NCBI RefSeq assembly: GCF_005405885.1
Contig: NZ_BJFL01000004.1
Location: 124,001 to 188,000 of the forward strand
Direction of reading: 5' to 3'
Length of the DNA: 64,000 bases
Origin: Gandjariella thermophila
GTDB lineage: Bacteria > Actinomycetota > Actinomycetes > Mycobacteriales > Pseudonocardiaceae
The notes under the pieces were generated by a model. The model saw only the letters and a program-made list of their open reading frames with translations, was not told the DNA's origin and searched no databases. The translations under genes and the position numbers were made by a program. Shown here piece by piece: positions 43,934 to 54,729 of this stretch (the stretch's first letter is position 1; every line of letters begins with the position of its first letter).

Positions 43934-44240
43934 TCCGGGCTCCTCGATGGGCGGTCGGCATCGGCGGCGCACGCGCGGCGCCACGGGTTGCGCACATCGT
44001 CCGGACGTCGGGCACACTTCGCCATGTGCCGCCGTCACCGTCTCGCTGTGCGCGCGCATAGCCATCCGTGGCTCCCTCGGTAGTTGACCCGAGGCCGTTC
44101 GGGCGGCACCGAATAGCCCGCGCGACGCATTTTCCGGGCGCCCCCCGGAATCCCGGCACGTGCGCATTTCATGCCGCTATCCTCGCGGTTACACAATCGG
44201 CGACCCCATCACCGCCGATGTGTCCAGAAGGGGTCCACGG
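43934..44240 (+). promoter_or_regulatory. 307-bp divergent intergenic region
   Basis: No gene is supported. A good -10 hexamer TATCCT lies at 44178-44183, 57 bases before the binding-protein gene; the matching -35 (GGCACG, 17 bp upstream) is poor. No clear ligase promoter was seen. Confidence 0.35.
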
Positions 44241-45476
44241 ATGCGCCTCTCCCTGCCGCGCGCGCTCGCCGCCGGAGTCATGGCCCTGGTCGCGCTGACC
44301 ACGGGTTGCGCCGGAACGGACGGCAACGTGCTCACCGGTCCGGGAGTCACCGCCGACACCATCTCGCTCGGCGTGCTGGGCGATCTCAGCGGCCCGTTCG
44401 CTCCGCTGGGCAAGAACCTGATGCAGGGCAACCAGCTCTACTTCGACAAGGTCAACGCGGCGGGCGGGATCTGCGGCCGGCAGGTGCGGCTGGTGGTCGC
44501 CGACCACGGGTACAACGCGCAGCGCGCCATCGACCTGTACTCCCAGGTGGAGCCGAAGGTGCTCGGCTTCGTCCAGCTGCTCGGCTCGCCGATGACCGAT
44601 GCGCTCAAGCAGGACATCCTGCAGGACCAGGTGCTCGCCGCGCCGGCGGGGTGGTCGTCGTGGCTGCTGCGGCACCCGTACCTGATGGTCACCGGCACCA
44701 CATACGACCTGGAGATGGTCAACGGGCTGGACTACCTGGTCAACCAGGGCGGCGTGACCCGGGGCGACGCGGTCGGCCACGTCTACCTGGACGGGGACTA
44801 CGGCGGCAACGCGTTGCAGGGCAGCACCTTCGCGGCCGGTCAACTCGGGCTCAGCCTGGTCCCGGTGAAGGTGGACGAGAAGACCCGGGACATGACCGCG
44901 CAGCTCGCCACGCTGAAGGCGCAGCGGGTGAAGGCGATCCTGGCGAGCGTGACCCCGGCGCAGACGGTCGCCATCGCCACCGCCGCCCGGGCCGCCGGGC
45001 TGGACGTGCCGATCCTGTCCGACAACCCCGGATTCGACCCGGCCATCCTGCGCACCCAGATGGCCCCGTGGCTGGAGCAGAAGCTGCTCATGGTGTCCTC
45101 CTACGCGCCGTTCGGCGCGGATATCCCGGCGGCCAGGGATCTCGCCGCCGCGTTCCGGGCGCGCTACCCGTCGGACGCGCCGAGCGCGGCGGTGGACTAC
45201 GGCTACGCGGTGGCCAACGCCTACGGCGAGATCCTCGCGACCGCCTGCGCCAACAAGGACCTGACCCGGGAGGGGGTGCACCGGGCCTTCCGCAGCCAGC
45301 ACACCATCGACACGGGAGGTCTGAACCCGCTGCTGCACTTCTCCGACGCCGGCAAGCCCTCCGCGGACGCGGTCTACGTGCTGCGCCCGGACAGTCACGT
45401 GCCCGGCGGCCTGGCCATCGTGAAGAACCTCTTCGTCAGCGCCCTGGCCAGCAGGTACGAGATCGCCGCGCTGTAG
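44241..45476 (+). CDS. Orphan branched-chain amino acid-type solute-binding lipoprotein (Peripla_BP_6)
   Basis: A 411-residue lipoprotein (lipobox LTTGC, Cys23) of the Leu/Ile/Val receptor class: ISLGVLGDLSGPFAPLGKNL, FDKVNAAGGICGRQV and DYGYAVANAYGEIL. AAGGGG precedes the ATG by 7 bases. As with the protein at 41331 there is no cognate transporter nearby. In related actinobacteria such proteins can bind aromatic acids, amides or fatty-acid-like ligands; the flanking acyl-CoA ligase may hint at that. Confidence 0.88.
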   Translation: MRLSLPRALAAGVMALVALTTGCAGTDGNVLTGPGVTADTISLGVLGDLSGPFAPLGKNLMQGNQLYFDKVNAAGGICGRQVRLVVADHGYNAQRAIDLYSQVEPKVLGFVQLLGSPMTDALKQDILQDQVLAAPAGWSSWLLRHPYLMVTGTTYDLEMVNGLDYLVNQGGVTRGDAVGHVYLDGDYGGNALQGSTFAAGQLGLSLVPVKVDEKTRDMTAQLATLKAQRVKAILASVTPAQTVAIATAARAAGLDVPILSDNPGFDPAILRTQMAPWLEQKLLMVSSYAPFGADIPAARDLAAAFRARYPSDAPSAAVDYGYAVANAYGEILATACANKDLTREGVHRAFRSQHTIDTGGLNPLLHFSDAGKPSADAVYVLRPDSHVPGGLAIVKNLFVSALASRYEIAAL

Positions 45477-45482
45477 CGGAGG

Positions 45483-46295
45483 TCAGCGGGTTCGGCCGAG
45501 CGCGGCATAGCCGGCGAAGCGCTCCGGGTGGCGGTCGGCGGACGCGTCCGGCTCCGGCCGCCACAGCGGTACCGGAACCACACCCGGTGGGACGAGTTCC
45601 AGGCCGGCGACGAGACCGGCGATCTCGGCCGGGGTGCGGAAGTTGAAGCGGGGCAACTCGTCGGGGTAGATGCGGGTGAACAGGGCCAGTCCCGCGCGGA
45701 TGCCCGGGTCCTCCCGAGCGGTGTGGGAGAGCGCCAGGTAGCTGCCGGGGCAGGCCGATGCTGTGTAGGCGGCGATCAGTCCCGCCGGGTCGTCGGCGTC
45801 CGGCACCAGGTGCAGGACGTCGATCATCAGCACGGCGACCGGTCTGCTGGGGTCCAGCAGGCCTTCGCCGGTGACGGCGCCGAGCACCGCGCCGGGGTCG
45901 CGCAGGTCCGCGCAGAGAAACGCGACGCCCGGCGTTCCGCTGAGCAGGCGGCGGGCGTGCGCGGCGACGCGGGGGTCGTTGTCCACGTACACCACCCGGC
46001 AGTCCGGGGCCAGGCTCTGCCCGATCTCGTGGACGTTGCCCGCGGTCGGCAGGCCGGACCCGAGGTCGAGGAACTGCCGTACCCCGGCGGCGACGAGGTA
46101 GCTGACCACCCGGCGCAGGAAATGCCGGTGCGTGCGTACCAGGTAGGGCAGGTGTGGCGCGCACACGACGAACTGGCTGGCCAGCCGGCGATCGGCGGCC
46201 ACGTGCTGGCTGCCGTCGAGCCAGTAGTCACGGATGCGGGCGAGGCTGGGCCTGCCCTTGTCGATCGTGCCGCAGACCGAGACCGCCTCGTTCAC
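45483..46295 (-). CDS. SAM-dependent methyltransferase (Methyltransf_19/DUF574)
   Basis: A 270-residue protein of a family very common in actinomycetes. Features are RPSLARIRDYWLDGSQHVAADR near the start, the SAM loop FLDLGSGLPTAGNVHEI, VVYVDNDPRVAAHARRLL and MIDVLHLVPD. GTG 46295 is chosen because GAAGGG lies 6 bases upstream; an ATG at 46316 lacks a ribosome site. Substrates of this family are generally unknown. Converges with the binding-protein gene only 6 bases away. Confidence 0.87.
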   Translation of the reverse strand: MNEAVSVCGTIDKGRPSLARIRDYWLDGSQHVAADRRLASQFVVCAPHLPYLVRTHRHFLRRVVSYLVAAGVRQFLDLGSGLPTAGNVHEIGQSLAPDCRVVYVDNDPRVAAHARRLLSGTPGVAFLCADLRDPGAVLGAVTGEGLLDPSRPVAVLMIDVLHLVPDADDPAGLIAAYTASACPGSYLALSHTAREDPGIRAGLALFTRIYPDELPRFNFRTPAEIAGLVAGLELVPPGVVPVPLWRPEPDASADRHPERFAGYAALGRTR

Positions 46296-46966
46296 GCTGC
46301 GCCCTTCCCCGATCATCCCGCGTAGTGGCGCACCCCAAGGTAATGGTACCGAGGCAGAGGGTAACAGATTAATCGGCCGGATGGAGCCGTCGCTGCTCGC
46401 GATGTCCGATCGGGCGGCAGCCGGCCGCGCGACCCGCCCCGGTCCGGGCGGCGGCGCCGGGACGCACCCGGATGCCATGGACGCCTGCGCCGACGGCCGG
46501 GGGCGGCCCGGGCGGCCGGGCCCGACCACGCCGGACGTCCGCACCAAGACGGCCAGGGAAAGCCGCGCCACCTGTCGCCGGCCGATTCCGCGGATCGCGC
46601 CCGTTGACCCGCCCGAAACATCGCACGCCGGCACGACCGATTTCCGGCCATACCGCAACACGCGAGTACGTCAACAGCTCTTCACGCGACTGTTGCGGAA
46701 CCGCGACACGGCAGCGACACAAAGATGCCGAACCTCCCCCGCCACAGTAACCCGTTCGAGTGATCAATTTGTGGCACCCATGGGCGACATGCCCGCTGAC
46801 CTGCCACTCTGCAGTGGACGCCCACTTGACCCCATGGACATACACCCGTTCGGATGTTGATGTTGGGACACACGGCCCAATACGCTACTCGGGGTAGCCG
46901 TTGGGATATCTGATCGTGTTGTCTCGTTAGTTACTTCGTGCGGACCTTGTCGGGGAAGGACGCGCT
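46296..46966. promoter_or_regulatory. 671-bp intergenic region before the diterpenoid cluster
   Basis: No gene is supported. It is less GC-rich toward its right end. A promoter for the cyclase is likely at TTGATG (46857-46862), 18 bp, TACGCT (46881-46886). The spacer holds an inverted repeat TTGGG/CCCAA (46863-46880), placed where a repressor or activator could act. Confidence 0.5.
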
Positions 46967-48628
46967 GTGGGGTCGTGGCATGCCCGCATCAAGAAGGAAG
47001 GCACAACACTTTTGACTGAAATGTGTTCCGATCCTTGGGGGAATACCTCCGTCTCCGTTTACGAAACTGCTCGGCTGGTCGCATTGGCACCCTGGCTGGC
47101 CGGACACCGGGCACGGACGGATTTCCTCCTACGGCAGCAGCATCCGAATGGCCGATGGGGCGGCCCGGACAGTTACGGACTGATTCCCACCCTGAGCGCG
47201 ACCCAGGCTCTGCTCGCCGGCCTGCGCCCGCGGAGTACCGGGCCCGAACCCGGCTCTGACCGCGCTGCACTGGTCGGCGCGGTGCGGCGCGGGCTGGCCG
47301 CGCTGTTCGAGTGGCTGCGCCGCGGGCACCGGGTGCCGGTGCCGGACACCGTCGCCGCGGAGTTCATCGTGCCGGCGCTGATCGACGAGATCAACGCCGC
47401 GCTGGCCGGGCTGATCCCGGAACGGGTCAGCGGGCTGGACGCCTTCCATGGCGCCCGCCTCCCGCTGCCACGCGGCATGCGCGCCGAGCCGCTGGCCAGG
47501 CTCCGCAAGGCGGTGGGCGGCGGGGCCGCACCGCCCACCAAGCTGTGGCACTCGCTCGAGGTCGTCGGCGTGCAAGCGCGGGAGGCGGCCGGCGTGCGCC
47601 CGGTGCTGGGTGCGGTGGCATGCTCGCCCGCCGCGACCGCGGCGTGGCTCGGAAACCCGCCGCCGGCCAAGTCGGACGCGACCGCGCGTTACCTGCTGGC
47701 GGTGCAGGGCCGTCATGGTGGGCCCGTGCCGGTGGGTACGCCGGTCGCCTTCTTCGAACGCGCCTGGGTGTGCGCCGCGCTGCTCGGTGCGGGGCTCACG
47801 GTTCCGGTGCCGCGCGCGGTGCTGGACGGCCTGCACGCCGGCTTCGGAAGGCTGGGGGCGCCGGCGGGACCCGGTCTTCCCCCGGACGCGGACGACACGG
47901 CCACCGCGCTGCTGGCGCTGGTGCAGGTGGGCAGTCCCCGCTCACCGGAATGCCTGTTCGCCTACCAGCAGCCGACGCACTTCGCCTGCTTCCCGGCCGA
48001 GCGGACCCCGTCGACCAGCACGAACGCGCACGTTCTCGAGGCGTTCGGCGCGACGCTGGGGCTGCGATCCCTGCCGGGCGGACAGCCCGTGCCACGCGAC
48101 CGCTACCGCGCCGCGATCGGCACGATCTCCGCCTGGTTGGCCGACCACCAGGAGCCCGAGGGACGGTGGCGCGACAAGTGGCACGCGTCGGCCTACTACG
48201 CCACCGTACGGTGCGCGACCGCGCTGGCCCGCTACGGCACTCCCGCATCGGCGGGCGCGGTGCGCAGGGCGGTCCGGTGGGTGCTGGACACCCAGCATCC
48301 GGACGGGTCCTGGGGGCAGTGGGGCGGCACATCCGAGGAGACCGCGTACGCCGTCCAGACCCTGCTGCTCGCCTGGCCACGCGCGCGGGACGCGGCATCC
48401 CGACAGGCCCTGGCGCACGCCGCGGCGCGCGGCTGCGCCTTCCTGCTGCGCGGCGCCGATCTTCGGGTGCATCCCGCGCTCTGGCACGACAAGGATCTCT
48501 ACCTGCCGGTGCGTGTGGTGCGTGCCGAGGTGCTGGCCGCGTTGTCCCTGGCGCGCACGAGGTCGCGGGTCAGGGCGATGGTCGACCGGGTACGCACCGA
48601 GCAGCCAGCGATCTCCGGGGAGCAGTGA
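46967..48628 (+). CDS. Class II diterpene cyclase (DxDD type, squalene-hopene-cyclase-like fold)
   Basis: A 553-residue protein with the catalytic acid motif DADDTATALL (Asp at about 307-310), as in ent-copalyl and halimadienyl diphosphate synthases, which protonate geranylgeranyl diphosphate to give bicyclic diphosphates. N-terminal SVSVYETARLVALAPWLAGH and QQHPNGRWGG and C-terminal QHPDGSWGQWGG are alpha-barrel QW-like repeats. No class I DDxxD motif is present. Size fits bacterial two-domain enzymes such as Rv3377c. Start GTG 46967 has GGAAGG 7 bases upstream. First gene of a three-gene cluster. Confidence 0.88.
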   Translation: MGSWHARIKKEGTTLLTEMCSDPWGNTSVSVYETARLVALAPWLAGHRARTDFLLRQQHPNGRWGGPDSYGLIPTLSATQALLAGLRPRSTGPEPGSDRAALVGAVRRGLAALFEWLRRGHRVPVPDTVAAEFIVPALIDEINAALAGLIPERVSGLDAFHGARLPLPRGMRAEPLARLRKAVGGGAAPPTKLWHSLEVVGVQAREAAGVRPVLGAVACSPAATAAWLGNPPPAKSDATARYLLAVQGRHGGPVPVGTPVAFFERAWVCAALLGAGLTVPVPRAVLDGLHAGFGRLGAPAGPGLPPDADDTATALLALVQVGSPRSPECLFAYQQPTHFACFPAERTPSTSTNAHVLEAFGATLGLRSLPGGQPVPRDRYRAAIGTISAWLADHQEPEGRWRDKWHASAYYATVRCATALARYGTPASAGAVRRAVRWVLDTQHPDGSWGQWGGTSEETAYAVQTLLLAWPRARDAASRQALAHAAARGCAFLLRGADLRVHPALWHDKDLYLPVRVVRAEVLAALSLARTRSRVRAMVDRVRTEQPAISGEQ

Positions 48629-48633
48629 TACCG

Positions 48634-49902
48634 ATGAACCGCGACGAGTTCCGCCTCGCCGTCCGCGCACCGTCCTTTCTGGACTCCCACGCCACCGCAC
48701 CGGGTGTGCTGGAGTTGCGCCCGCGGCCGCGGCCGCGGCTGCTGGTCTGGCACCCGGAGGCGGTGGCCTGGATCCACCGCAACGATCAGGACCTGCGCCA
48801 TGCGGGCAGCCGGTTGCTGACCCGCATGCTGGGCCAGCGTTCCCTGCTGTGGACCGACGGCCCCCGGCATCTCGCCTACCGCCGGGTGCTCGGCCCGGCG
48901 CTGACCGGCCGCCGACGGGAGGTCCACCGGCAGATCGTCTCGGACACCGCGCACTCCGCGATCGACGCGCTGGGCCCGGGAGACGTGATCAGGGTGCCCC
49001 GGTGGACCCGCGACCTCACGCTCCGGGTCATCTCGCGGATCGTCCTCGGCAGGGCGGACGGTGCACTGCTCGCCCCGTTCAGCGCGTGGATCGAGAACAC
49101 CCTGGGGGCGCCGCACCGCGCCCTGGCCAACCGGTTCCTGCGCACCCACGCGTGGTGGCCGATCGCGATGGCGCCACGCCCGATGTTCCGCCGCGACCTG
49201 GACCGCGCGCTGGTGCGCTCGGCGGAAGCCGCGGCGAGCACCCGGCCGGCCGGGCTGGCTGGCCTGCTGCGCGCCGGCGACGGGCCGCTGGGCCACCTCG
49301 ACGACGGTGAGCTGCGCGACCAGGTGGCCTCCCTGCTCTTCGCCGGGTACGAGACGACGGCCTCGTCGATCGCGTGGACGCTGTACTGGCTGGACCGGCA
49401 CGACGGCGTGCGCCGCGACATCCTCGCCGAACTGGCGGCCACCTCCGACGACGGTTCCGACGCCGCCCGGGTTCCGCTGCTGCACGCCGCCGTGCAGGAG
49501 GCGCTGCGGCTGACCCCGCCGGCGATCGTCACCGAGAAGCGGATCCTGCCCGCCGACGCCGACCTGCTCGGCAGGACGCTGCCGGCGGGAAGCGTCCTCA
49601 CCCCCTGCGTCTACCTCGCACACCGGCACCCCGACCGGTTCCCCCGACCACACCGCTACGATCCCGGCCGCTTCCTCGGCCGCCGTGTATCGGGTGCCCA
49701 CTACTTCCCGTTCGGCGGCGGGTCCCGGTACTGCCTCGGCCGCGACCTGGCACTGCTGGAGATCCGCATGATCGTCGCCGCTGTCCTCCGCCGCCGCGAG
49801 CTTCGCTGTGTCGACCCGGACGTGCCGCGGCCGGAACTCCGCGGGGCGGCGAGCGCCCCGCCGGCGAACCTGCGAATGGTCGTGACCGCGTGCCACCGTT
49901 GA
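48634..49902 (+). CDS. Cytochrome P450 of the diterpenoid cluster
   Basis: A 422-residue P450 with I-helix LLFAGYETTASSIAWTLYW (intact acid-Thr pair), ExxR EALRL, and haem loop FPFGGGSRYCLGRDLALLE. The form resembles CYP110/CYP120-like and eukaryote-type P450s more than the P450 at 33682. It starts 5 bases after the cyclase stop. Likely oxidises the diterpene skeleton; substrate inferred from context only. Confidence 0.93.
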   Translation: MNRDEFRLAVRAPSFLDSHATAPGVLELRPRPRPRLLVWHPEAVAWIHRNDQDLRHAGSRLLTRMLGQRSLLWTDGPRHLAYRRVLGPALTGRRREVHRQIVSDTAHSAIDALGPGDVIRVPRWTRDLTLRVISRIVLGRADGALLAPFSAWIENTLGAPHRALANRFLRTHAWWPIAMAPRPMFRRDLDRALVRSAEAAASTRPAGLAGLLRAGDGPLGHLDDGELRDQVASLLFAGYETTASSIAWTLYWLDRHDGVRRDILAELAATSDDGSDAARVPLLHAAVQEALRLTPPAIVTEKRILPADADLLGRTLPAGSVLTPCVYLAHRHPDRFPRPHRYDPGRFLGRRVSGAHYFPFGGGSRYCLGRDLALLEIRMIVAAVLRRRELRCVDPDVPRPELRGAASAPPANLRMVVTACHR

Positions 49903-49925
49903 ACGTCCCCAGCAAACCGGGCACC

Positions 49926-50828
49926 ATGTGGCGCGATCTTCGCCGCGTCCATCGCCTCGAGTACCCGTTTCCGGTCCGGTACCTGTGCTACGCGTGCTGT
50001 GGCGCCGCCTATGCCGCCGGTACGGCCCGGCAACTGGCCGGGCCGCCCGTGCTCACCGCGATCACCATCAGCTTCGTGCTCATCATCGCGCTGAACGCGC
50101 TCAACGCCGCCGCCGACGTGCGCACCGACGCGCTGGCCGGGGACAAGGGCCGCGTGGCGAGCGCGGTGCTGCGCATCGGCCGCGACCGTGTCGTGCTCCT
50201 GGCGGGGGCGGAGATGGCCTGGGCACTGGCCATGGCCGTCGCGGTGTCGCTGCGGACGCAGCACTGGCTGACCGCGGCCGCCGCCGCAGCGACCGTCGCG
50301 GTGAACCTGCTCTACAACCTCGAACCGGTGCGGCTGAAACGGCGGCCGCTCGCCAACCCGGTCGCCCTCGGACTGTCCGTCGGTCTGCTGCCGTGCCTGG
50401 TCTCGGCCGGCGCGGTCCAGCCCGACCCGGCGTGGTCGGCATGGCCGATCTTCCTCGGGCTGGGCCTCCTGGTCACCGGGCGCGCCTCCTGGTGGTCCAT
50501 ACCGGACCGGGCCAGCGACGCCGCGACCGGGATGACGACACCGGCCGTCCGGTTCGGTGCGGCACCCACCCTCGTGGCGGCGAGCGTGCTCGCCGCCACC
50601 GGGCTGGGCCTGCTGGGTTGGGGCCTGGTCCGGCAGTACGGGCTCGCCTGGGCATTGCTCGGCGTCGCGGTGAGCGCGGTCTTCCCGGTGGACGCTCTGG
50701 CGCTGCTCCGTCGCTCCGCGGCCGACCGCCTGGCCAGCTCGGTCGCTATGCGCCGGCGCGGCGCCAGCCTGGTGATGGTCGCCGACACGATCCTGGTGGC
50801 CATCCCGTTGATCGCCAACCAGCCGTGA
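49926..50828 (+). CDS. UbiA-family membrane prenyltransferase (or UbiA-type terpene cyclase)
   Basis: A 300-residue integral membrane protein with about eight to nine helices. The first Asp motif is NAAADVRTD (NxxxDxxxD) in LNALNAAADVRTDALAGDKG; the second is IPDRASDAATG (DxxxD), both expected to bind Mg-diphosphate. An earlier in-frame GTG at 49890 would overlap the P450 stop (coupling); neither start has a clear ribosome site. UbiA enzymes prenylate aromatic or other acceptors, but some act as membrane terpene cyclases. In this cluster, which lacks a class I synthase, it may process the class II cyclase product. Confidence 0.88.
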   Translation: MWRDLRRVHRLEYPFPVRYLCYACCGAAYAAGTARQLAGPPVLTAITISFVLIIALNALNAAADVRTDALAGDKGRVASAVLRIGRDRVVLLAGAEMAWALAMAVAVSLRTQHWLTAAAAAATVAVNLLYNLEPVRLKRRPLANPVALGLSVGLLPCLVSAGAVQPDPAWSAWPIFLGLGLLVTGRASWWSIPDRASDAATGMTTPAVRFGAAPTLVAASVLAATGLGLLGWGLVRQYGLAWALLGVAVSAVFPVDALALLRRSAADRLASSVAMRRRGASLVMVADTILVAIPLIANQP

Positions 50829-50849
50829 TCGGTCGGTAGGCCGAGTTCG

Positions 50850-50891
50850 CGCGGCGGAGACCCACGGGTGGCGCCGCGGGTTTCCGCCGCG
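50850..50891. terminator. Terminator closing the diterpenoid cluster
   Basis: A 14-bp stem with one G-U pair (50850-50863 with 50878-50891) and a 14-base loop, between the UbiA stop and the convergent small-gene stop at 50945. Confidence 0.75.
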
Positions 50892-50944
50892 TGGACGGCC
50901 GGTACCCAACACCGCGTTCCAGAAGATCCGGCCGCCCAGTCAGA

Positions 50945-51151
50945 TCAGCACCGAGGAAAGCACTCGACGCAGAGCACGCGCCCGCCGGGAAGCCTACTTG
51001 CCACCGGGACGCACACCGCTCCGCAGCGGGCGACGTGGAGACGGACGCCACGGAGATTGATGGAGTACGCGCCCGGCTCGACACGGTGCACCAGGCGGCG
51101 GAACACGCCACTGCCGTGTTGCTCCCCGGGCCTAAGCGGGGCGTCAGGCAC
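50945..51151 (-). CDS. Small Cys-rich protein B
   Basis: A 68-residue protein, VHRVEPGAYSINLRGVRLHV followed by four Cys in the pattern ARCGAVC and VLCVECF. Spacing suggests a zinc-ribbon-like fold. Its GTG overlaps the stop of the preceding small gene by 8 bp, so the two are translationally coupled. No known function; similar tiny proteins accompany XRE regulators in Pseudonocardiaceae, from memory rather than a search. Confidence 0.6.
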   Translation of the reverse strand: MPDAPLRPGEQHGSGVFRRLVHRVEPGAYSINLRGVRLHVARCGAVCVPVASRLPGGRVLCVECFPRC

Positions 51152-51392
51152 CGGCCGGCAGTTCGGAGGGCGGAGGCGGCAGCGGAGCGCGCCAAAGACA
51201 CAGGGTGCAGGGCATCCCGCACGGCTTCGTCAGTGCCTCGGCGGTGCCTCGGAGGATCAGTTCTCCGCAGTAGGCCGTCAGCGACTCGGGTATCTCCTCA
51301 CCGTCCGGAAACGCCACGATGTGCACGACCCGGCGCGACTCTCCCACGACGCCGCGCCGCAACCGGACGAGCAGCAGTCTCGGCGCCGTCAC
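51144..51392 (-). CDS. Small conserved-looking protein A
   Basis: An 82-residue protein: LLLVRLRRGVVGESRRVVHI, FPDGEEIPESLTAYCGE and GMPCTLCLW. Three Cys (YCGE, PCTLC) could bind metal. GTG 51392 is the best start in frame, although its ribosome site is weak. It precedes and overlaps small protein B, downstream of the XRE gene and a perfect 17-bp dyad. Confidence 0.6.
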   Translation of the reverse strand: MTAPRLLLVRLRRGVVGESRRVVHIVAFPDGEEIPESLTAYCGELILRGTAEALTKPCGMPCTLCLWRAPLPPPPSELPAGA

Positions 51393-51519
51393 CGCGGCCG
51401 CCCGCTGTGATGGTCGGCGGGCACCTGGCCGGGGAGCATCGGGCGCGGCGTGAGATCGACATGAACCCCTGCGATCACCTCCTGTCGGAGGCGACGCTAT
51501 GGATCTTCGAGTCCGCGGA

Positions 51520-51536
51520 AGGTACAGCGTGTACCT
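51520..51536. promoter_or_regulatory. Perfect 17-bp operator-like dyad
   Basis: AGGTACA-GCG-TGTACCT, 7+3+7, lies between the XRE stop (51550) and the start of the small-protein pair (51392). The neighbouring XRE protein is the obvious candidate to bind it. Confidence 0.65.
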
Positions 51537-51549
51537 CCACCCGGTCGGG

Positions 51550-52764
51550 TTACACCGCGAGGCCGACCCGCGCGCACAAGCTCCGTACCTCGTCCCGCGT
51601 TCCCGACGGGGGTCGCGCCGAGAGGTCGAGCAGCATCTCCCGCGCGAAGCCGTTGTAGCGGATGGTTTCCGACGCGGTGCGTTCCGCCTTGTCGAGCAGG
51701 GCCAGCGCCGCGTGTCGCTCATCGCGCTGGTGGTGAGCGCGGGCCACTTCGATCAGGTGCCGGCTTCGCCGCGCCAGTGACGGGATCGCGTCCGCGTCGA
51801 TGCTGCTGGCCGCCTGCAACGCCTCACCGGGCCGACGCAGCTCCACGCCGACCGTGGTCGCATGCGCGGCCATCACCGCCTGCGAGAACGAGGTCTGCAC
51901 GTGCCGGTACGCGGAGCCCAACCGACGTGCCACCGCGTCCGCCCGCTCAAGCGCCGCCCACGCTGCGCCGGGCCGACCTCGGCGCGCGTGCACATACGCG
52001 ATCTCCGCGTGGAGCGCCCCCGAAATGCCGCGCCAGTCCTCCGGGGCGCCCTCCAGGTGTGGTCGCAGGGCACGGTTGGCGTCCTCGGCAAGGATGATCG
52101 CCTCGGACCACCGGCCAGCATCCCGCAGCGCCTGCACCATCGCCCACGCGCCACCCGCGATCGCGTACGGATCATCTGCTTCCTGCGCTTCGTGTAGTGC
52201 CCGATCGGCGACCAGCCACACCAGCTCCGGTGCCGGCTGGTAGGCGACGTAGAAGTCGGCGAGACGGTACACACCGGCCAGCACCCGGCGGGCGTGCCGT
52301 CGCTCTTCACCGGAAGTGGCACGCACCGCCTGCTGCGCGTCACGAATCAACCCGGGCAGCAGTGCGCCGAGCTGGGTGCGGTGGTCGGGTGTGGAGTGAC
52401 GCACCTGCCAGGCTTGCCGCAGCCGCAGCGCCAGGTGCGTCACGTTCGGCGGCGTGGCCGGCTGGTTCACCCGGTACTCGGTGAGTGCCGCCTGTACCGC
52501 CGACAGCGCCGCGTGCCGTTCGCCTGCGAAGAGCTGAACCGGCACGGCGTGGCCATTGCCGGTCAGCTCGGCGAGGTCGGAGAGTTCGAGCGTCTGCGCG
52601 ATCTTCAGCAGCATGGACAACCGAGGCATCTGCAGCCTGCCGGTCTCGACCGCTTTGACCCACTCCGCGGAGCGTCCGACGAGTCCGCCGAGCACTGCCC
52701 GGGACATGCCGGTGCGGCGCCGATACTGCTGCAGTCGTCGACCAAAAGACGTGCTCGCGTCCAC
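51550..52764 (-). CDS. XRE-family regulator with TPR-like C-terminal domain
   Basis: A 404-residue protein with an N-terminal Cro/C1 helix-turn-helix (SFGRRLQQYRRRTGMSRAVL, VGRSAEWVKAVETGRLQMP) and a long helical region with TPR-like repeats (LADRALHEAQEADDP; EAIILAEDANRALRP; ALLDKAERTASE). This layout is typical of actinomycete regulators sensing small molecules or peptides. The two tiny Cys-rich genes follow in the same direction. Confidence 0.88.
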   Translation of the reverse strand: MDASTSFGRRLQQYRRRTGMSRAVLGGLVGRSAEWVKAVETGRLQMPRLSMLLKIAQTLELSDLAELTGNGHAVPVQLFAGERHAALSAVQAALTEYRVNQPATPPNVTHLALRLRQAWQVRHSTPDHRTQLGALLPGLIRDAQQAVRATSGEERRHARRVLAGVYRLADFYVAYQPAPELVWLVADRALHEAQEADDPYAIAGGAWAMVQALRDAGRWSEAIILAEDANRALRPHLEGAPEDWRGISGALHAEIAYVHARRGRPGAAWAALERADAVARRLGSAYRHVQTSFSQAVMAAHATTVGVELRRPGEALQAASSIDADAIPSLARRSRHLIEVARAHHQRDERHAALALLDKAERTASETIRYNGFAREMLLDLSARPPSGTRDEVRSLCARVGLAV

Positions 52765-53006
52765 GAGACCACCGTCCCCTTCGCGGAAGCCGTGCGGACC
52801 TCTTTCACCAAGCCCCGGTACCGTCCGGGCAACCGCGGGCTCCGGTGAAGAGGTGGATCAAGCGTACGCGGGACACCGCTGGCGGAACATGGTCGTGGGT
52901 CGGGGCGCGCCGAGACGTCGGCCGACCGGACAGTCGGCTTGGAACTATGCCGAGTTGGTCCCAGTATCGGCGGCACAACCCGTGGCCTGCGGCGATACTG
53001 AACGCC

Positions 53007-53291
53007 GTGACAGCAGGGCAGCCCCGCCTGGAGATCGAGTACTGCACGCGGTGCCGGTGGTTGCTGCGCGCCGGATGGACGGCGCAGGAACTGCTGACCA
53101 CGTTCACCACCGAGCTGGGCGAGGTCGCGTTGATCCCCGGGACCGGCGGCGTCTTCGACATCCGCATCGACGGCGAAACGGTGTGGTCGCGCGCGGAGCG
53201 GGGCGGGTTCCCCGAGCTCGCAACGCTGAAGCAGCTGGTACGGGACCGAATCGCGCCCGGCCGCGACCTCGGGCACACCGACCGTCGTTAG
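53007..53291 (+). CDS. Rdx/SelW-like thioredoxin-fold protein (Cys form)
   Basis: A 94-residue protein with the redox motif CTRC at the N-terminus (LEIEYCTRCRWLLRAGW) and the Rdx family tail GGVFDIRIDGETVW followed by GFPELATLKQLVRDRI. In selenoproteins W, T and H the second position is selenocysteine; here it is Cys. GTG 53007 gives the normal family length; a GATACT hexamer ends 7 bases before it, so the mRNA may be leaderless. Likely a small oxidoreductase. Confidence 0.85.
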   Translation: MTAGQPRLEIEYCTRCRWLLRAGWTAQELLTTFTTELGEVALIPGTGGVFDIRIDGETVWSRAERGGFPELATLKQLVRDRIAPGRDLGHTDRR

Positions 53292-53308
53292 CCGGGCGAG
53301 AGCCCGGC
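53291..53308. terminator. Terminator after the Rdx gene
   Basis: GCCGGGC-GAGA-GCCCGGC, a 7-bp perfect stem with a GNRA tetraloop, starts at the last base of the stop codon. Confidence 0.6.
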
Positions 53309-53406
53309 CGAACGGGTCCGGCGATCCGCCATCCACCGGATCTCGGTGGGCGACCGACGGTGGCGGTGGGCGGAAGGTACGGCGGCGACCCCGGGTCAGT
53401 GGGACG

Positions 53407-54729
53407 TCAGGAGGTCGCGAGCCGGGGTTGGTCGCCGGGTCCCGGTGCGGGGGCGGTGCGCGGCAGGGTACGTAAGGCGACCAGGGCCAGCCGGCAGGCG
53501 AGCTGGTGCCGGTCGTCCTCCAGGGACCGCCCAGTGAGCTTCTCGATGCGGCGGAGCCGGTTGAGCACGGTGTTGCGGTGGCAGTGCAGCGCCTGGGCGG
53601 CGCGGCTCGCGGACCGCTCGCAGCCGAACCACACCTCCAGGGTGTCCAGCAGCACGTCCCGCTCGGCGCGGTCCAGGTCGAGCACCCGGGCCAGGGTGCC
53701 GTGCGCGAGGCGCTGGGCGATCTGGGGGCTGGACACCACGAGCGCCTCGGGCAGGCGGTCGTCCAGCACGGCCACCGCCGCGGCGCCCTCGGGCAGGGTG
53801 CGCAGCGCGGTCTCCGCGAGCCGGTACCCGGTGCCGATCTCGGCGAGCCCGTCGACCTCGCTGGACACGCCGATCCGGCCGCGCGGGCCGGCCTGCAGCA
53901 GCGCGACCACCCGGCGCAGCGGTGCCCGGCCCAGGTACACCACGCCGATCTCCCGGTCGGCGCGCACCCGCCAACCGGAGGCGATGCCGTGCGCGGCGAG
54001 CGCGTCGCGGGGTGCGCGCGGCAGCCCGCCGGCCGCCGGGGCGGGCACCAGCGTGACCACGACGTACCGGCCGTGCGCGGGCAGGCCGAGCACCGCGCGC
54101 GCTTCGGCGGCGACCGCCGGCTCGGCGCCCCGGCCGTCCAGCAGCGCGTCCAGCACGGCGTCCCGGCGGCGCGCGTCGGACCGGCGCGTCTCCGCCTCGC
54201 GGGCCCGGTACCCGTCGGCGAACGCCACCGAGTACCGGTCCACCACCGACCACAGCTGGCTGGCCCGGTCGATCAGGTGGCCGAGCACCTCGGGCGGCCG
54301 GGACCGCGCCTCGGCGAGCAGCGCCTCCCACAGCAGCTGGGCACCCAGCCGGTAGACGTGCAGCACGCACTCCAGGGGCACCCCCTGCTCGGCGCGGCGC
54401 CGCCCGGTCTCCCGGGGCACCGCCGCCGCCTCCGGCCCGTCCGGCGTGGTGCCGGCGAACACGCGCAGCACCCCGGCCATGTTGTCGTGGAAGGAGCGCC
54501 GCATGTCCGCGTCCGGGATCGCGCCGCCGCGCCGGTAGGGGTGCTCCGCGCCCTGCACGATCTCCACGAGCTGGTCGACCAGCCGGGGCAGGTGGGTGAG
54601 GACGACGCCAACGACGTCGCGGATCAGCGCGGTGCCGTCCGCCCCGGGATCCGTCGCGGCGGCGCCGCGCGCCGGGGCGGCCATGCCGGCGCGGGTGGGC
54701 GAGCCCACGTCATCGGGTTCTCGCGGCAT
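53407..54729 (-). CDS. PucR/CdaR-family transcriptional regulator
   Basis: A 440-residue regulator. Residues about 30-190 form an RsbRD/PucR-like N-terminal domain (LPRLVDQLVEIVQG; ECVLHVYRLGAQLLWEALL), the middle a GGDEF-like domain, and the C-terminus the PucR helix-turn-helix (LDTLEVWFGCERSASRAAQAL, CHRNTVLNRLRRIEKLTG). Such regulators control purine, sugar-acid or amine catabolism. The target is not evident; it precedes no catabolic gene here. Confidence 0.9.
   Translation of the reverse strand: MPREPDDVGSPTRAGMAAPARGAAATDPGADGTALIRDVVGVVLTHLPRLVDQLVEIVQGAEHPYRRGGAIPDADMRRSFHDNMAGVLRVFAGTTPDGPEAAAVPRETGRRRAEQGVPLECVLHVYRLGAQLLWEALLAEARSRPPEVLGHLIDRASQLWSVVDRYSVAFADGYRAREAETRRSDARRRDAVLDALLDGRGAEPAVAAEARAVLGLPAHGRYVVVTLVPAPAAGGLPRAPRDALAAHGIASGWRVRADREIGVVYLGRAPLRRVVALLQAGPRGRIGVSSEVDGLAEIGTGYRLAETALRTLPEGAAAVAVLDDRLPEALVVSSPQIAQRLAHGTLARVLDLDRAERDVLLDTLEVWFGCERSASRAAQALHCHRNTVLNRLRRIEKLTGRSLEDDRHQLACRLALVALRTLPRTAPAPGPGDQPRLATS

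Follow-up and report, generated by a model that had tools for sequence, protein, structure and literature searches.

The window analysed here, a 64,000-nucleotide stretch of the Gandjariella thermophila genome, carries three tightly packed forward-strand genes in the order class II cyclase, cytochrome P450 and UbiA. Namely, a PtmT2-like class II (type II) diterpene cyclase, predicted to be an (ent-)copalyl diphosphate synthase, is encoded at 46967..48628 (+; GTG start, 553 aa; Pfam SQHop_cyclase_C, 49.4 bits with a cut-off of 26.1). It is followed after a gap of 5 bp by a P450 gene (48634..49902, +; 422 aa; PF00067, 160 bits, E 1e-46), the end of which overlaps by 13 bp the start of a gene for a UbiA-superfamily membrane protein, a predicted class I-like diterpene cyclase (49890..50828, +; 312 aa; PF01040, 73.5 bits with a cut-off of 34.2, E 2e-20; GTG start at 49890 picked from orthologues). 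The three Pfam matches and the tight co-directional order confirm the trio named in a preliminary description of this DNA. The unit is larger than the 46857-50891 given there, which missed a fourth member, a SAM-dependent methyltransferase of the Methyltransf_19/DUF574 family that here lies upstream and divergent (45483..46316, -; PF04672, E 2e-76), as well as a second, diverged, intact-looking copy of all four genes elsewhere in the same genome. All cassette genes in the window are intact, with their catalytic motifs present.

The divergent intergenic region of 650 bp (46317..46966) is the expected site of the promoter or promoters. That said, the promoter of its own with which the cluster had been credited was not borne out by a consensus scan for sites of the sigma-70-like type only, which gave none in 44000-53500 (shuffle mean 0.4). 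The terminator claimed at the other end held up in part. Directly after the UbiA stop there is a real and very strong hairpin (50845..50896, +; 19-bp outer stem), with -56 kcal/mol for an 80-nt stretch, a z of -5.1 and 0 of 200 shuffles as good, and it is likely the end of the cassette transcript; however, it has no U-tract and is for this reason missing from the terminator-scan list.

The solved structure nearest to the cyclase is PtmT2 (5bp8; E 5e-131, 47.9% identity, far beyond chance), the ent-copalyl diphosphate (ent-CPP) synthase of platensimycin and platencin. The DxDD motif noted earlier is indeed in place (D307-A-D309-D310), along with DxxxxE (D127/E132), H195, H355, K404, D508 and Y512. 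All of these mapped residues, among them DxDD, DxxxxE, the activating His and the diphosphate-binding Lys, which together mark the PtmT2 subfamily, are found in all 34 cyclases of the group, including two unlinked ones. All 34 also keep the Asp of the labdane/clerodane switch (D508 here, in WHDKD), a position at which Tpn2 has G485 and PtmT2 has D502 (PMC9814783). The enzyme is predicted to convert GGPP to copalyl diphosphate, most likely ent-CPP.

For the membrane protein, structure prediction supports a UbiA fold: the model (pLDDT 93.3) matches the UbiA homolog 4tq4 with a Z of 25.6 (271 residues, rmsd 2.8). Both Asp motifs described earlier were recovered (N72xxxD76xxxD80 and D206xxxD210), and the fold and the two motifs together place the protein in the UbiA superfamily. 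A Pyr4-like membrane cyclase was rejected, since both Pfam and the fold identify the protein as UbiA. The descriptions of the solved UbiA-fold matches name prenyltransferases or UbiA homologs, and UbiA prenyltransferases have the same fold and the same motifs as UbiA cyclases. The suggestion that the protein might turn out to be an enzyme of menaquinone or chlorophyll type, unrelated to the cyclase product, is weakened. Namely, no NCBIfam model is reached at E<=1e-10, with only sub-cut-off matches at E<=0.01, and on this ground a standard enzyme of that kind was rejected. In a tree, the cassette UbiA also stands apart from this genome's four other UbiA proteins, with weak branch support (36; one row with a branch length of 5 was not used).

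The preliminary description had proposed looking for the same trio in other genomes, and it is readily found. An alignment-based UbiA scan of genome contigs gave 35 loci, of which one from an archaeal MAG (26% identity, E 5e-4) was dropped from all counts; a protein-only scan of the contigs gave no match. The remaining 34 named actinobacterial loci come from a single peptide pattern and are neither exhaustive nor unbiased; Saccharomonospora iraqiensis is represented by two strains, and six of the genomes recur in a 60-genome search. The P450 adjoins UbiA at every one of the 34 loci, and the cyclase is next to the P450, closely linking all three genes, in 30. The cassette thus defined occurs in 12 named genera, 10 of them with the cyclase at the locus. 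When all or nearly all candidates were scored, UbiA relatives appeared in 8 of 60 genomes, this one included, and consequently a class-wide UbiA search that matched this genome alone, scoring at most 6 candidates per genome, is no evidence of rarity; another UbiA search, with matches in 2 of 341 genomes, was limited in the same way. Over the 21 loci with all four genes at full length, the divergence of the cyclase and that of UbiA covary (rho 0.58 as compared with a permutation maximum of 0.29, the species tree being ignored).

Exceptions to linkage take several forms. Two genomes, G407 and G410, have UbiA apart from the cyclase (by about 1.3 Mb in G407), yet carry a close full-length cyclase elsewhere. 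Among the genomes of the four loci without a cyclase, two show cyclase fragments only and a third has a cyclase of 38% identity that is interrupted by an internal stop. Cyclase fragments are what Saccharomonospora iraqiensis has, and in Saccharomonospora piscinae the methyltransferase is split over two frames. On the Rhodococcus plasmid pRWAY04, a UbiA at 33% has no annotated cyclase as a neighbour.

The stated lack of a class I partner stands: there is none in the cassette, and PF19086, the one Pfam family searched, has no match in the whole genome, in spite of its two PtmT2-like cyclases. Genetic pairing of a CPP-synthase-type cyclase with UbiA is seen at the 30 linked loci. The arrangement is different in most of the 21 genomes with a cyclase match in the class-wide set, where positions were compared by eye: in 19, the cyclase has a class I synthase as its neighbour and no UbiA lies within 10 kb of it, the other two being this genome and one with a 31% cyclase match and no PF19086 match. 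What is more, in 18 of the 19 class I-linked cyclases DxDD ends in T instead of Asp and the diphosphate-binding K is R, as opposed to none of the 34 cyclases in the UbiA-linked group. On the cyclase tree, separating UbiA-linked from class I-linked members takes 2 changes (15.6 in shuffles; a single change in 15% of bootstraps); PtmT2 is left unplaced.

As for isoprenoid supply, it is correct that the cassette in the window lacks a GGPP synthase, but three related loci have a gene of that type upstream. Streptosporangium canum has the order polyprenyl synthase-ispH-dxs-ispG-cyclase-P450-UbiA, with the MEP genes in the same operon, and Streptosporangium minutum has polyprenyl synthase, dxs and ispG homologues at the same places; in Streptomyces jumonjinensis, a ferredoxin gene and a polyprenyl synthase gene lie directly upstream of the cassette. 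For these linked synthases no NCBIfam model reaches its cut-off, so that chain length is not fixed by profile. One genome is identical to S. canum over 18 kb and another to S. minutum over 19.8 kb, for which reason their family is taken as Streptosporangiaceae; a PtmT2-like cyclase occurs in 205 of its 341 genomes, the best identity among the matches listed being 53%. Over 36 loci, no flanking ORF family besides the four genes recurs in more than two genera, while synteny within a single genus extends to as many as 9 Amycolatopsis loci.

We consider it fairly probable that the locus is a minimal diterpenoid cassette, in which the class II cyclase is followed by UbiA acting as a class I-like cyclase, by P450 oxidation and by probable methylation. 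GGPP, the presumed substrate, would be supplied from elsewhere in the genome and bicyclised to copalyl diphosphate, most likely ent-CPP. UbiA, with Mg2+ bound between the two Asp motifs, would then ionise the allylic diphosphate and may close further rings in the manner of the UbiA-type ent-atiserene synthase of platencin, taking the place of a soluble class I synthase. The P450 would oxidise the UbiA product, presumably in that order, and the Methyltransf_19 enzyme would probably add a methyl group to the hydroxyl or carboxyl so formed. For none of these cassettes did we find a reported enzyme activity or product.

The preliminary description had left the choice between a class II plus UbiA pathway and a meroterpenoid one. 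The former is well supported by context: the genes are closely linked, the genome has no PF19086 class I synthase, related operons include GGPP-synthase-type and MEP genes, and platencin sets a precedent. In the latter, which we regard as unlikely though worth weighing, UbiA would be a prenyltransferase that loads the cyclised labdanyl group of CPP onto an acceptor, supplied by primary metabolism or from elsewhere in the genome, and the P450 and the methyltransferase would decorate the conjugate. Prenyl transfer is the canonical UbiA activity, the Asp motifs and fold are intact, and the distant profile matches of the protein are DGGGP synthase, 4-hydroxybenzoate octaprenyltransferase and chlorophyll synthase. 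Bacteria are known to have a meroditerpenoid cluster that combines P450s and methyltransferases with a UbiA-like prenyltransferase, but its cyclase is Pyr4-like (PMC13307353). Yet no acceptor-making gene is common to more than two genera over the 36 loci, the S. canum operon shows isoprenoid-supply genes and no recognisable acceptor-making gene in the stretch read, and prenyl transfer would leave this genome without a second cyclase of the PF19086 family.

It is also conceivable, if very improbable, that the cyclase product is finished by an unlinked enzyme, be it a phosphatase or one of Rv3378c type, with UbiA in a different isoprenoid role. The separation seen in G407 would fit such a scheme, as would a survey in which 67 of 342 ent-CPPS clusters lacked a second cyclase, except where a noncanonical enzyme might serve (PMC9814783). 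It is difficult to reconcile, however, with linkage of cyclase, P450 and UbiA across ten named genera, with the correlated divergence of cyclase and UbiA and with two complete cassette copies in this genome. We give equally little credence to a decaying or silent cassette, real genes from which this organism makes no product now: the two Saccharomonospora species do look broken, but the genes in the window are all intact and have a second intact-looking copy.

Returning to the minimal diterpenoid cassette, the pairing of a class II cyclase with UbiA is itself already known, from platencin and from the above survey (PMC9814783), and the cassette may be seen as a variant of it. The survey found a likely UbiA cyclase in 14% of its 342 actinobacterial ent-CPPS clusters, and that number may well include our loci; it counts the same pairing, whereas the cassette composition, the methyltransferase link and the duplication come from the present loci. 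The ent-atiserene synthase of platencin is UbiA-type and acts on ent-CPP (PMC10301674, PMC10847714). The cassette thus resembles PtmT2 and PtmT1 in the catalytic residues of its cyclase and in having a UbiA-family partner, the latter likened to PtmT1 by family and cyclase pairing and not by sequence. However, the platensimycin and platencin clusters are reported to include at least 14 tailoring enzymes (PMC10847714), as compared with the 3-4 genes of the cassette, and they have the class I enzyme PtmT3, absent from this genome as judged by PF19086, while the cassette adds Methyltransf_19.

Few UbiA proteins are, to our knowledge, terpene cyclases, and PtmT1 is the sole characterised one we know of that acts on CPP. 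EriG, a fungal UbiA-type diterpene cyclase, leads to a cyathane, and both it and StlTC act directly on GGPP. StlTC is the UbiA-type cyclase for lydicene in Streptomyces lydicus, and both are UbiA-family diterpene cyclases of the kind proposed here; the passage on StlTC in PMC10301674 mentions no class II partner. Conversely, natT1/natT2 and spgT1/spgT2 (PMC10055836) share the cyclase family with the cassette, and such class II plus class I pairs, including the 19 sampled here, have P450 neighbours as well, but in them a soluble PF19086 enzyme serves as the second cyclase. More tentatively, and with somewhat less than even confidence, we suggest that the cassette UbiAs form a separate lineage of CPP-acting membrane cyclases and are not simply PtmT1 orthologues. 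Together with the P450 and Methyltransf_19, they would produce, across Pseudonocardiaceae, a methylated diterpenoid of an uncharacterised kind, in two different versions in this genome and in unmethylated or otherwise finished form in Streptosporangium.

The many divergent cassette copies in 12 named genera are a ready test set for what makes a UbiA protein a cyclase as opposed to a prenyltransferase, in that members can be swapped on one CPP donor, the products read and the residues mapped. Among the cassette P450s, the FxxGxxxCxG haem motif is found in 36 of 36 and an AGx[ED]TT-type I-helix motif in 34. The cassette also puts Methyltransf_19/DUF574 enzymes into the context of a pathway; their two solved relatives are labelled as being uncharacterised or of unknown function. 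In 25 of the 34 loci, a methyltransferase lies convergent beside UbiA; the other nine lack one in that position, and one of them ends there. The gene at 45483-46316 groups with the cassette methyltransferases in a tree that leaves out four cassette rows below 240 aa, and in which one row labelled a paralogue is the S. piscinae cassette gene. As 14 paralogues nest among the cassette rows, the grouping is distinct without being a strict clade; the family itself is sizeable, with 6 to 17 matches per genome in six genomes.

The class II diterpene cyclase (46967-48628), the cytochrome P450 (48634-49902) and the UbiA-family membrane protein (49890-50828) follow one another on the plus strand of the window as a three-gene run spanning 46967-50828, and a methyltransferase gene, assigned by family match to Methyltransf_19 (45483-46316), lies divergently upstream of the cyclase. 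The UbiA start, a GTG at 49890 picked from orthologue comparison, overlaps the 3' end of the P450 gene. Directly 3' of UbiA, folding against shuffled sequences gives a very stable hairpin without a U-tract (50845-50896; -56 kcal/mol over an 80-nt stretch, z -5.1), and a consensus scan around the cassette in the window gave no sigma-70-like promoter. Downstream of the cassette, at 52845-53288, is a gene for a SelT/SelW/SelH-family (Rdx) protein.

Scanning genome contigs with the UbiA alignment yielded 35 loci, of which one archaeal locus was left out; the remaining 34 are actinobacterial and represent 12 named genera and, in addition, an unplaced MAG. They are chiefly from Pseudonocardiaceae (Amycolatopsis, Prauserella, Lentzea, Saccharomonospora and others); further ones occur in Streptosporangium, in Streptomyces jumonjinensis and on a contig that bears the label Rhodococcus rhodnii. 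In all 34 the P450 adjoins UbiA; the cyclase adjoins the P450 in 30, and a convergent Methyltransf_19 gene follows UbiA within 500 bp in 25. In five genomes no cyclase stands beside UbiA (G407, G410 and those of loci L116, L117 and L118): a close cyclase of full length is found at another site in two of them, a third has one that is 38% identical and interrupted by an internal stop, and the last two show fragments only. With the four genes masked in 36 loci, no further ORF family was common to more than two genera; within Amycolatopsis, flanking genes are common to up to 9 loci, as expected from vertical descent. Signs of decay are seen among the Saccharomonospora loci (L072 / L114 and L116 / L118). 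Namely, the cassette methyltransferase of S. piscinae is split over two frames, and S. iraqiensis has cyclase fragments on other contigs and only an apparent remnant before the P450. Separately, the cassette region is about 98% identical in L088:6670-13255 and L089:6668-13141, whose contigs bear the labels Rhodococcus rhodnii and Kibdelosporangium aridum, respectively. Their flanks are mostly unrelated, and either one of the assemblies is contaminated or the region was transferred recently; in L088, insertion-element-like frames, judged by eye, flank the cassette on both sides.

The closest solved structure to the window cyclase is PtmT2 (5bp8; E 5e-131), the ent-CPP synthase of platensimycin/platencin biosynthesis, followed by Tpn2 (1e-79). 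The window cyclase keeps the DxDD and DxxxxE motifs, two His and the diphosphate-binding Lys, and has Asp at the position of PtmT2 D502, which is occupied by Gly in the clerodane synthase Tpn2 (residue roles as given in PMC9814783). The catalytic residues, including this Asp, are identical in all 34 cyclases of the UbiA-linked group (those of 30 named loci, both from this genome, and one each from G407 and G410, where the cyclase is not linked to UbiA), and this conservation predicts a labdane product of CPP type, the ent form being suggested by the analogy with PtmT2 only. In 18 of 19 class I-linked cyclases (L038-L056), T replaces the last Asp of DxDD and R the diphosphate-binding Lys, a combination found in none of the 34 UbiA-linked enzymes; PtmT2 has D and K. 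Since the two sets are largely separate lineages, this difference may reflect ancestry, not function.

What, then, would act on such a product? The window UbiA matches PF01040 (73.5 bits) and no NCBIfam model at E<=1e-10, its NxxxDxxxD and DxxxD motifs are invariant in alignments of 9 and of 24 rows, and its predicted structure (pLDDT 93.3) superimposes on an Archaeoglobus UbiA homolog (Z 25.6, rmsd 2.8, 271 residues aligned). That said, cyclases and prenyltransferases of the UbiA family cannot be told apart by motif or by fold. The preliminary description's alternative of a meroterpenoid route stays the main rival, one we hold to be rather improbable. The genomic context bears on the same question. 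A cyclase match at E<=1e-20 occurs in 21 of 394 genomes of the class; when coordinates were compared by eye, 19 of these had a class I synthase within about 2.1 kb of the cyclase and no UbiA within 10 kb, the other two being the present genome and G082 (31% cyclase match, no PF19086 hit). PF19086, which according to a published test (PMC10055836) covers bacterial type I synthases well without hits on UbiA-related ones, has no match in the present genome, despite its two class II cyclases. Among eight cassette-UbiA genomes searched, six hold PF19086 enzymes (the present genome and G403 do not), on contigs other than that of UbiA except in G407 (about 2 Mb away). The pairing of a class II cyclase with UbiA is already known: the ent-atiserene synthase of platencin is a UbiA-type enzyme acting on ent-CPP (PMC10301674; PMC10847714), and of 342 actinobacterial ent-CPPS clusters in a survey, 14% contain a gene for a likely UbiA cyclase (PMC9814783). 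We rate the cassette as a variant of that pairing. In a literature search that most subscription journals lay outside, no description was seen of a cassette of these four genes, of the attached methyltransferase or of what the cassette makes, which is a weak negative. The chemistry we infer, and consider reasonably probable as a whole, is one in which the class II enzyme would convert GGPP to (ent-)CPP, UbiA would ionise the latter and close further rings, the P450 would oxidise the UbiA product, and methylation would probably follow oxidation.

As the preliminary description had claimed, the window's cassette indeed lacks a GGPP synthase; the genome's three polyprenyl synthases all lie outside it. 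In Streptosporangium canum, a polyprenyl synthase, ispH, dxs and ispG precede the cassette in one gene run, S. minutum of the same genus has polyprenyl synthase, dxs and ispG homologues at matching positions, and in Streptomyces jumonjinensis one open frame directly upstream of the cyclase (L093:5668-6978) encodes a fusion protein with a ferredoxin and a polyprenyl synthetase domain. The linked synthases are closest to a copy in the present genome (G000:C1:321764; 57-63%) and score below cut-off with the NCBIfam models for GGPP synthase IdsB and the family 2 encapsulin-cargo prenyl synthase. Such polyprenyl synthase and MEP genes beside related cassettes connect the cassette with prenyl diphosphates, most probably GGPP.

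That the methyltransferase lies there by chance is unlikely, judging from its family tree: with 6 to 17 Methyltransf_19 matches per genome (six genomes), the cassette methyltransferases, including that of the window, nevertheless cluster together, although not as a strict clade, 14 paralogues being nested among them (four cassette rows shorter than 240 aa were left out). In G407 some 1.3 Mb separate UbiA from the cyclase, yet the cyclase keeps its convergent methyltransferase neighbour. The present genome carries a second copy of the cassette (contig C15, locus L036) with the common gene order and a convergent methyltransferase, its four proteins being 52-59% identical to their window counterparts. 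About 1.8 kb past the second-copy methyltransferase lies a HalD-family halogenase gene (L036:6823-7692; PF23169, E 2e-15).
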